Source: Planctomycetaceae bacterium (GTDB lineage Bacteria; Planctomycetota; Phycisphaerae; Tepidisphaerales; Tepidisphaeraceae). Taken from it: DNA of 64,000 nucleotides. The DNA is taken from contig JAIYCY010000017.1 of assembly GCA_027487775.1 (NCBI GenBank), forward strand, positions 62,001-126,000, written 5' to 3'. The position numbers were made by a program, and so were the translations under genes. Positions 55,538 to 61,128 of the stretch are shown piece after piece (within the stretch, counting starts at the first letter, position 1; each line of letters starts with the position of its first letter). The notes below the pieces were generated by a model that saw only the letters and a list, made by a program, of their open reading frames with translations, did not search any database and was not told the DNA's origin.

Positions 55538-55834
55538 ATGAGCGACATCAACAACAGTATCACCAAAGGCATCGGCGGGGCCTTGCCCGTCAACCGCCTC
55601 CCACACGCACGCGTCGCCTATCAGGCCGAGACCTCCACGCCACAGCCCGCTCGCTCCGCCGACAAAGTCGAGCTCAGCCCCCAAGTCCAAGCCCTCCTCG
55701 AAAAACTCCGAGCCGGCGACATCCGACAAGACAAAGTCCAGGACGTCCGCGCACAACTCGCTGAAGGATCCTACGAAACCGACGATAAACTCAACACCGC
55801 CATCGATCGGCTTATCGACGACCTGACCGCCTAA
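55538..55834 (+). CDS. flgM: anti-sigma-28 factor FlgM
   Basis: FlgM binds FliA (sigma-28) and blocks late flagellar gene expression until the hook is complete. The 98-residue protein has a disordered N-terminal half and the C-terminal FlgM pattern: D-K-V-E-L-S, I-R-Q-D-K-V-Q-D-V-R, G-S-Y-E-T-D-D-K-L and L-I-D-D-L. AGGAG lies 6 nt before the ATG. No fliA or flgA gene is beside it. It follows a hairpin-rich leader. Confidence 0.9.
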   Translation: MSDINNSITKGIGGALPVNRLPHARVAYQAETSTPQPARSADKVELSPQVQALLEKLRAGDIRQDKVQDVRAQLAEGSYETDDKLNTAIDRLIDDLTA

Positions 55835-58744: not shown

Positions 58745-60139
58745 TCATCGTCCGATCCGACGCTCTGCCTTTGCCCAATAACGACTGAACCGCTTCAGAT
58801 CCACCCCAACCTCCAGTTCCACAAAATCCCGCGCCTTCACCCACTCCACCGACACTTGCGATTCGAGCCGTCGCACCACACGCCCGATCGCCGGGTCGGG
58901 CGAATGCCCCGTCACCACCCGATCTACACCCGACCGCTCAACTTCGCCCAGAATCGTCGCAACAACATCATTGCTCGCGATCACGCGCACCGGCATCTCC
59001 GCCAGCGACTCGCCGATGAATCGCCACCGCTTTGCCGACCATCGATCACGACCCGATCGTGTGCAATCGATCACAAAGATGGCACACGCAGAACCATCCA
59101 TCAAGCCACGCATCGCAGGATGATCTGCCGACAACATCCCGTCATGAACCCACACCAAGTGCCCGCCCGGCGAGGACTCGTCCATCGCATCGTCCTCCTC
59201 CGGCTTCGACCAGAACGATCGCCCGCCCGCTCCCGAGCCAAAACCACCACCCCCATCCCGAACGCCCGCCCCCTCATCCATAACAACCGCCCGCGGAAAC
59301 AACTTCTGCGCGATCGCCTCGTATCCGTCGTCAAACAAATCATTCGCATCATGCTCGACAAACCGATCACCTGAATACTTCAGCACGTTCGCACGATTGA
59401 AAATGTACGGCTTATGGCTGAACGTGCTCGCACACCACTGCCAACTCAAGTTATTGCTCGCCTCATCACCGTCCAACAGATGCTCCAAAAACCATCGCGC
59501 CCCCGCCTGCCACTTCACGCGACGGCCGTGCACCACGTAGCCAGCCATCCACATCCGCGCGTGGTTGTGCAGATACCCCGTCTCATACAACTCACGCACA
59601 AACGCGTCGATGTAATCAATCCCCGTTCGCCCCTCACGCACATCGACCGGTAGCTCGTCGGCATAGTCGTTCGCATGCCAACCCGTTTTGTAAGGCTCAA
59701 GATCGTCCCAAATGTCCGAGCCGATCTGCTTCCAGACACGCTGATAAAAGTCTCGCCACGCAAGTTCCTGCACAAACTTCTCGATGCTGCCCCGGCGATG
59801 TGACGTAAGTGCAAAGTCGAGTACCTCGCGCAGCTCCAGCACGCCGTGCCGCAGGTAAGCACTCAATTGCGTCACAGCCCCGTCCAGATGGTTCCGCGTT
59901 CGTCCGTATTCGGAGGGGTCGGTCCGCGCGAGCCGCCGCTTCGCCTCGTCACGCCCACCGGGCAATCGCCTCGTCGACTTACGCGACAGCTCAATCTCCA
60001 CATCATCAGCATCCGGGCAGGCCGTGCGAATCATCGACTCGATCCACGCTCGATCCTGCAAGCCATCCTGCAGGGCAATCGAGCCATCCCACTCACGGAG
60101 CACCTGTCCTCCTGCTGTCCCGTTTGATTCGATCGACAT
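58745..60139 (-). CDS. photolyase-like protein with swapped domains
   Basis: This encodes 464 residues. Residues about 80-262 are a photolyase/cryptochrome FAD-binding domain: Q-L-S-A-Y-L-R-H-G, E-L-A-W-R-D-F-Y, T-G-I-D-Y-I-D-A-F-V-R-E-L, H-N-H-A-R-M-W and A-S-N-N-L-S-W-Q-W. Residues about 325-447 are an alpha/beta photolyase-type domain: L-V-W-V-H-D-G-M-L, A-I-F-V-I-D, R-V-V-T-G-H. Canonical photolyases have this Rossmann domain first. A Gly-rich linker (about 290-322) joins them. It probably binds FAD; DNA repair or signalling is unknown. A TTG at 60193 would overlap the next gene. Confidence 0.82.
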   Translation of the reverse strand: MSIESNGTAGGQVLREWDGSIALQDGLQDRAWIESMIRTACPDADDVEIELSRKSTRRLPGGRDEAKRRLARTDPSEYGRTRNHLDGAVTQLSAYLRHGVLELREVLDFALTSHRRGSIEKFVQELAWRDFYQRVWKQIGSDIWDDLEPYKTGWHANDYADELPVDVREGRTGIDYIDAFVRELYETGYLHNHARMWMAGYVVHGRRVKWQAGARWFLEHLLDGDEASNNLSWQWCASTFSHKPYIFNRANVLKYSGDRFVEHDANDLFDDGYEAIAQKLFPRAVVMDEGAGVRDGGGGFGSGAGGRSFWSKPEEDDAMDESSPGGHLVWVHDGMLSADHPAMRGLMDGSACAIFVIDCTRSGRDRWSAKRWRFIGESLAEMPVRVIASNDVVATILGEVERSGVDRVVTGHSPDPAIGRVVRRLESQVSVEWVKARDFVELEVGVDLKRFSRYWAKAERRIGR

Positions 60140-60173: not shown

Positions 60174-61085
60174 TCAATTCGCGGCGGGCTCAATCAGCTT
60201 CGGCTCGACGTCCTGCGACCAATACCGCTCACCCTCACCAAGCCACCCCTCATAAATCTCATCACCAAACCCGCGCTCCCGATCAAATGGCGCAGGCCCC
60301 GCCCGCAATGACACCGTCAACTCGTCCTCACCTCGACGAATCACCACCAGAATCCGCTGCCCCACTCGCGTTCCGTTCATCACCGATCTCAGCGATTCAA
60401 AATTGTGCACCGCATACCACGTCACCCGCTCGTCCGGATTCCAAGGCACCGGCGCCATCCGCAGGATCACATCCCCCTCCAAAAGCCATGTCAACGCGTC
60501 ATAGCCCGCCCGACGCTCAGGAACCAGCAAACCACGCGCAGGGCCGCCCGGCGCGTCTATCACCACCGGTTGAATCGATCGCAAACCGATCATCCCCTGA
60601 CCCTGACCCTGAAATTGATGCCGACTCACCACAAACAAATGAATCATCGCCGAACGCAGCGCACGACGCTGCTGGGCAGAAAGCGGTGACTGCTCGATCG
60701 CCAGCCGCTTCAGTTCCTCCATCGCAAGCCCAGCAGGCACATCCAGCAAAAACTCCGCGCGATACAACACCGATTCCGCCGGCCTTCTCACTTCAGGATC
60801 CGCATCACCCAAATCTCGCAACGCAACACGCAACCGTTCACGTCCCTCCGCACGCCTCTGCTCGATCTCCGCCTCATTCCGCTCGGCCTCGGCAATCTTA
60901 GGATCGCCTGCGACCGGCTCCTGCTGTTGTTCAGCTGCTTGATTCGACTTCGCCTCTTCGTCTCCGCGCGACAGTCCGACGAAAACAAAGTTTGCAGCCA
61001 TCGACACCCCTACGAGTGCAAAACGCAATCCTCCATTGCAGCACCCTTTCCGCCGATCCCTCGATGCTTTGCGACTTTGCTTCAT
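60174..61085 (-). CDS. exported protein with PDZ-like C-terminal domain
   Basis: This encodes 303 residues. An N-terminal basic segment and hydrophobic stretch (about 20-38) form a signal or anchor. A Glu/Gln-rich helix (about 45-85) and a helical region follow (about 85-150). The C-terminal half resembles a PDZ domain: L-E-G-D-V-I-L-R-M, N-F-E-S-L-R-S-V-M-N and R-I-L-V-V-I-R-R-G-E-D-E-L-T-V-S-L. ATG 61085 is preceded by TATACT 8 nt upstream. No protease domain is present. It starts a leftward pair with the photolyase-like gene. Confidence 0.75.
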   Translation of the reverse strand: MKQSRKASRDRRKGCCNGGLRFALVGVSMAANFVFVGLSRGDEEAKSNQAAEQQQEPVAGDPKIAEAERNEAEIEQRRAEGRERLRVALRDLGDADPEVRRPAESVLYRAEFLLDVPAGLAMEELKRLAIEQSPLSAQQRRALRSAMIHLFVVSRHQFQGQGQGMIGLRSIQPVVIDAPGGPARGLLVPERRAGYDALTWLLEGDVILRMAPVPWNPDERVTWYAVHNFESLRSVMNGTRVGQRILVVIRRGEDELTVSLRAGPAPFDRERGFGDEIYEGWLGEGERYWSQDVEPKLIEPAAN

Positions 61086-61093
61086 CACCCACA

Positions 61094-61099
61094 AGTATA
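61094..61099 (-). promoter_or_regulatory. -10-like TATACT, 8 nt before PDZ gene start
   Basis: The spacing and the flanking CC match the PAC2 gene at 6587 exactly (CCTATACT, 8 nt, ATG). Confidence 0.4.
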
Positions 61100-61128
61100 G
61101 GCTCTGTCCGTCGATCACCCTCTTGCGT

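Follow-up and report, generated by a model that had tools for sequence, protein, structure and literature searches.

A FAD-first photolyase-family protein without the iron–sulfur cysteines of Phr4 and Phr6, and its predicted role in CPD repair

The 64,000-nucleotide stretch of planctomycete DNA analysed here (the window) encodes a photolyase-family protein with its two domains in reversed order, the FAD domain first (58745..60139, minus strand). The order is read from the open reading frame and its translation, from the succession of PF03441 and PF00875, and from an AlphaFold2 model. The aligned residues lead us to regard the protein as probably a fused, Fe-S-free, Phr6-like CPD photolyase of the Phr4/Phr5/Phr6 kind. 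The reversed order itself was already published in 2022 and is not new (PMC9426592). What is new, as judged from aligned sequences, is that all four Fe-S cysteines, which every Phr4/Phr6 was reported to have, are missing from the window protein and from the two relatives closest to it. New here is also the span of the FAD-first reversed family, which takes in Acidobacteriota, Deinococcus plasmids, Alphaproteobacteria and the lineage of the window.

Gene and domain order

The gene lies on the minus strand, runs from an ATG at 60139 to a stop at 58745 and encodes 464 amino acids with no internal stops. Translation may start at this ATG or at a GTG near 60103; in the model of the whole protein (mean pLDDT 85.3, pTM 0.86) about 17 residues at the N-terminus are disordered. 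The FAD-binding catalytic domain, canonically C-terminal, occupies residues about 59-285 (59285..59965, minus strand). It is followed by a Gly-rich disordered linker at residues 291-317 (59189..59269, minus strand; pLDDT < 50 at 291-294 and 296-317) and by an antenna-type Rossmann domain, canonically N-terminal, at residues about 325-464 (58748..59167, minus strand). Sequence and predicted fold together establish the domain identities, the domain order and the two-gene form found in relatives.

The FAD half is recognized directly. PF03441 matches residues 122-253 (E 5.2e-28, 98.3 bits against a Pfam cut-off of 27), the best PDB matches are class I photolyases (1tez, 1owl; E 1e-23), and the FAD family aligns by hhalign with the C-terminal columns of 18 canonical photolyases (99.8%, E 1.1e-30). 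NCBIfam matches on the window protein all fall within this half, far under cut-off.

The second half is recognized at the level of the family. In the window protein alone PF00875 matches residues 328-438 under its cut-off (E 0.016-0.038); in an alignment of the C-terminal domain of 29 family members, 24 match it individually, with a best E of 3.5e-5. When PDB sequences are searched with the antenna-family profile, the first five matches are cryptochromes and photolyases (best E 8e-4), and hhalign places the family on the N-terminal columns of 18 canonical class I photolyases (98.1%, E 1.2e-13). As a negative control, the antenna family gives no match to the FAD family (E 0.22). Foldseek aligns in sequence order, so the two halves were compared separately rather than as a whole permuted chain. 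Modelled alone, the antenna domain forms a five-strand alpha/beta fold (pLDDT 87.8) with plant cryptochromes, then photolyases, as its best PDB fold matches (Foldseek probability 1.00; TM about 0.6 over 146 residues). A signature of the antenna family, RFSRYW, lies near the C-terminus (58775..58792, minus strand); its R, F, R and W are invariant in the 29 members, and it aligns with the end of the canonical antenna domain, YTPYxRAW. In the lineage of the window the antenna domain shows little conservation, and one member, L082, lacks part of it.

The reversed order had been proposed in a sequence-only reading from five motifs, all of which are present: WRDFY at residues 128-132, HNHARM at 191-196, NNLSWQW at 229-235, LVWVHD from about 327 and AIFVID from about 353. 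Its view of the C-terminal half as an antenna-like Rossmann domain agrees with the separate searches of the two halves by profile and by fold. Some observations would suit a different origin, namely the chance joining of a canonical FAD domain to a Rossmann-like domain of other descent, or mis-assembly of the gene: PF00875 stays under cut-off in the window protein alone, and universal stress proteins (Usp-like) occur among the lower fold matches of the antenna domain. We consider such an artefact scarcely credible. Profile searches, predicted fold and comparison with relatives all point to a photolyase antenna domain, the order recurs in independent genomes, and the reversed order is taken as real because profiles, fold and the linker-bearing whole model concur. 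An assembly error is excluded by the same order in two other genomes of the family to which the window belongs, which supply the fused members L082 and L083.

The gene immediately upstream (60174-61118, minus strand, 314 amino acids, without a Pfam match) is on the same strand. As it ends only about 34 bases from the photolyase ATG, the two may be co-transcribed. A promoter and terminator scan across the photolyase gene region gave no signal above chance. Farther away, at 55538-55834 on the plus strand, lies a small FlgM-like anti-sigma-28 protein, which suggests flagella in the host. The genome gives ten matches to PF07596, a family that is typical of Planctomycetota and that none of 14 control genomes contains; this suggests a member of the Planctomycetota, perhaps of the Phycisphaerae.

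Active site and predicted function

Positions aligned to the active-site and tryptophan residues of E. coli photolyase are nearly all invariant across the family. The motif N192-H-A-R-M196 (59552..59566, minus strand) aligns with E. coli N341 and M345; N192 is invariant and M196 is kept in 23 of 24 members. The motif N229-N-L-S-W233-Q-W235 (59435..59455, minus strand) aligns with N378, W382 and W384, and N229, W233 and W235 are invariant. W210 corresponds to W359. The third electron-transfer tryptophan position varies within the family, being W154 here and H, Y or F in others. With E125 and W128 aligned to E274 and W277, the equivalents of the CPD-contacting residues E274, W277, N341, M345 and W384 of E. 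coli photolyase are all kept. From these alignments we infer that the protein binds FAD, undergoes photoreduction through W233 and W210, and repairs CPD lesions; CPD repair appears more likely than (6-4) repair.

The sequence-only reading had left the choice between light-sensing and repair. Sensors have arisen from photolyase folds several times. The host genome carries two more photolyase-family genes, C4 (a 574-aa frame in canonical order) and C20 (a 472-aa frame whose N-terminal PF00875 domain looks class II-like), so repair need not depend on the window protein, as would suit a cryptochrome-like blue-light sensor. Against such a role, the lesion-contacting residues are kept, the protein has no signalling domain or tail, and its neighbour genes are unrelated enzymes; we think a sensor very unlikely. 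The light-sensing half of the proposal finds no support, and repair is made likelier by the active-site residues and by the UV phenotypes of Phr4/Phr5 (PMC9426592). In that work, disruption of phr4 in Synechococcus RS9916 lowered UV survival, and in the one functional test of a relative, phr4/phr5 protected E. coli from UV-C with no significant light-dark difference (PMC9426592). This result counts against taking repair driven by light as established in the family.

In the proposed CPD photolyase, the FAD half would bind the damaged bases and FADH-, and the antenna half would pack on it and either pass on excitation or simply complete the fold. No CofG/CofH (FO synthase) match exceeds its cut-off in the host genome, which is 94.7% complete. 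One of the CofH-like proteins passes the MqnE cut-off and the other scores best as MqnC, just under cut-off; these two enzymes of menaquinone synthesis are the best explanation for them. Since FO synthase was not found in the genome, 8-HDF is unlikely as the antenna pigment, and another pigment is presumed.

Fused and separate halves in relatives

Scanning GTDB genomes with peptide seeds of the window protein returned 74 loci; because the seeds come from that protein, the numbers of fused and split forms given below do not amount to a census. Where both halves are readable, 5 loci are fused, all in Acidobacteriota (L004, L015, L016, L019, L043), and 41 carry two adjacent genes. Fused members occur also on three Deinococcus plasmids, besides the two genomes from the family of the window. 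Deinococcus sp. QL22 encodes the halves as two genes, which overlap by 4 bases (ATGA). Its plasmid-borne antenna subunit (WP_249396018.1, L126:3184-3705) is annotated just as 'hypothetical protein' and is encoded directly downstream of a 'FAD-binding domain-containing protein'; the antenna subunit of Synechococcus WH7803 likewise has no NCBIfam match.

The sequence-only reading had offered fusion of separately encoded halves or circular permutation as the source of the reversed order. The many relatives with adjacent separate genes make fusion the better option and leave permutation as the lesser one. An upstream FAD-subunit gene would have been fused end to end with a downstream antenna-subunit gene, which would account for an order opposite to that of canonical photolyases. 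We take the direction to have been fusion and not fission.

A possible programmed +1 frameshift has been proposed between phr4 and phr5 (PMC9426592). Among the 41 split loci the antenna frame relative to the FAD gene is +0 in 12, +1 in 8 and +2 in 21; the antenna genes have their own start codon, at spacings from overlap up to about 260 bases. In 12 of 12 Nostocales-type cyanobacterial genomes where the FAD gene has no adjacent antenna gene, the antenna gene is found elsewhere, mostly on a different contig; one pair lies 5.4 kb apart on the same strand (G069) and another 36 kb apart on opposite strands (G073). Such distant pairs cannot be joined by a frameshift; for these, an enzyme of two subunits is the simplest reading. 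The use of all three frames, together with the distant pairs, makes two subunits a better account of the split form than a programmed frameshift.

In the phylum of the window the family is rare: at E 1e-40 it occurs in 2 of 343 genomes, and the other of these, L117, is split and has all four Fe-S cysteines. A contig labelled Blastopirellula (L040, NZVR01000033.1) has its FAD gene nested inside marine Synechococcus with 100/99 support and is probably a mis-binned Synechococcus contig, not the source of a planctomycete gene. Matches in phage records cover the FAD half only, at 31-36% identity, and none covers 80% of the query.

Iron–sulfur cysteines and the FAD-domain tree

In the window protein, Tyr176 (59612..59614, minus strand) stands where 20 of 24 family members have the first Fe-S cysteine. 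Cysteine positions 2-4 align with Val261, Asp264 and Asp267 in a shortened loop (59339..59359, minus strand). The full set of four cysteines is present in 57 of 77 aligned FAD sequences. Five members with a complete cysteine region and a readable Phr4/6-type antenna are free of all four: the window protein, L082, L083 and two Alphaproteobacteria labelled Hellea/Algimonas (L017, L023; 0/4 each). The remainder of the 20 without the full set are SPL-like proteins, L059, L060, L062 and the truncated L056. As the five antenna-bearing members each keep 0/4, loss of the cysteines is all-or-none. Two of the others, Burkholderiales proteins of about 383-385 amino acids (L059:3950-5098, L060:3941-5095), have the FAD domain first and no Fe-S cysteines. 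Their C-terminal domain ends in CRSFSxFW, similar to RFSRYW, and they are possibly a further diverged reversed-order branch.

The closest described relatives, Phr4 and Phr6, were predicted to be (6-4) photolyases from their four Fe-S cysteines, present in all reported members, and from a UV-C phenotype (PMC9426592). That the window protein is likewise a reversed-order (6-4) photolyase we judge distinctly unlikely: all four cysteines are absent from the window protein, L082 and L083, which makes that basis inapplicable, and the N/M pair of the active site is of the CPD type. If the prediction for the relatives is right, CPD repair by the window protein would be a change of substrate.

On the FAD-domain tree, the family and the SPL-like proteins separate from canonical class I photolyases (95/96). 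The SPL and class I rows form separate 100/100 groups, the SPL rows being recognized as such because they resemble short proteins of the Roseobacter type, and not through a curated model. The lineage of the window is basal, with weak forks. Among the sampled members the Fe-S state requires 1 change, in either direction, and a single Fe-S-free clade is not rejected (AU p 0.116). The fused state requires 3 changes; with a borderline AU p of 0.042 for one single fused clade, more than one fusion is likely, not certain.

The NewPHL/SPL proteins are inverted ssDNA CPD photolyases (PMC13274461), and the window protein might act like them or belong with them. SPL-like proteins are its nearest outgroup, have the FAD domain first and are without a full Fe-S cysteine set. 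These likenesses make a preference for ssDNA possible, and the proposal is the least improbable of the alternatives, although still unlikely. Membership of the SPLs is rejected: the window protein falls outside their 100/100 clade and is without their motif GFFxFKKxI. Its antenna family matches SPL C-terminal domains weakly (hhalign 10.6%, E 0.003), in contrast to the strong match to canonical antenna domains. In the SPL-like L064-L074 this weak match is collinear, as is one to the canonical antenna (E 5e-4); this C-terminal domain is perhaps an antenna domain that has diverged greatly.

We tentatively propose, at somewhat less than even confidence, that the enzyme was ancestrally of two subunits, that FAD and antenna proteins were joined in the 'wrong' order on several occasions, that the lineage of the window is an Fe-S-free branch with its own substrate range, and that this family may go back to a single FAD-first ancestor common to it and the inverted SPLs. 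If such an ancestor existed, the FAD-first layout would be an ancient alternative beside the canonical layout and not a recent rearrangement of it. Two published ideas, that the Fe-S cysteines imply (6-4) activity and that a programmed frameshift joins phr4 and phr5 (PMC9426592), become testable with natural proteins, since there is a branch without all four cysteines and there are genomes with distant halves. Deinococcus, which is culturable, holds fused and split forms and makes a direct comparison possible.

Comparison with known photolyases

The described FAD-first photolyases of the picocyanobacteria Synechococcus and Cyanobium, encoded by phr4 and phr5 or by a single phr6 (Haney et al. 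2022, PMC9426592), are the closest counterparts. Both halves are homologous to those of the window protein and follow the same order, and identity to the gene pair of Synechococcus WH7803 is about 40%. The two differ in host group and in the four Fe-S cysteines of Phr4/Phr6, none of which the window protein has, and its lineage lies outside the cyanobacterial members on the FAD tree. The four-cysteine pattern of the wider Phr4/6 family is common to the FeS-BCP (6-4) photolyases such as Agrobacterium PhrB (PMC9426592), which the window protein matches at only E 0.01 and from which it differs at all four positions. The NewPHL/SPL proteins, for example that of Dinoroseobacter shibae, resemble it in their inverted topology and in having no Fe-S cluster (PMC13274461; PMC9426592); they form their own clade and end in GFFxFKKxI where the family of the window has RFSRYW. 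With the class I CPD photolyases of E. coli (1dnp) and Anacystis (1qnf/1tez) the window protein shares both folds and the active-site N, M, E and W, in swapped order and with an FAD domain that is shorter at its C-terminal end (profile positions 1-133 of 203).
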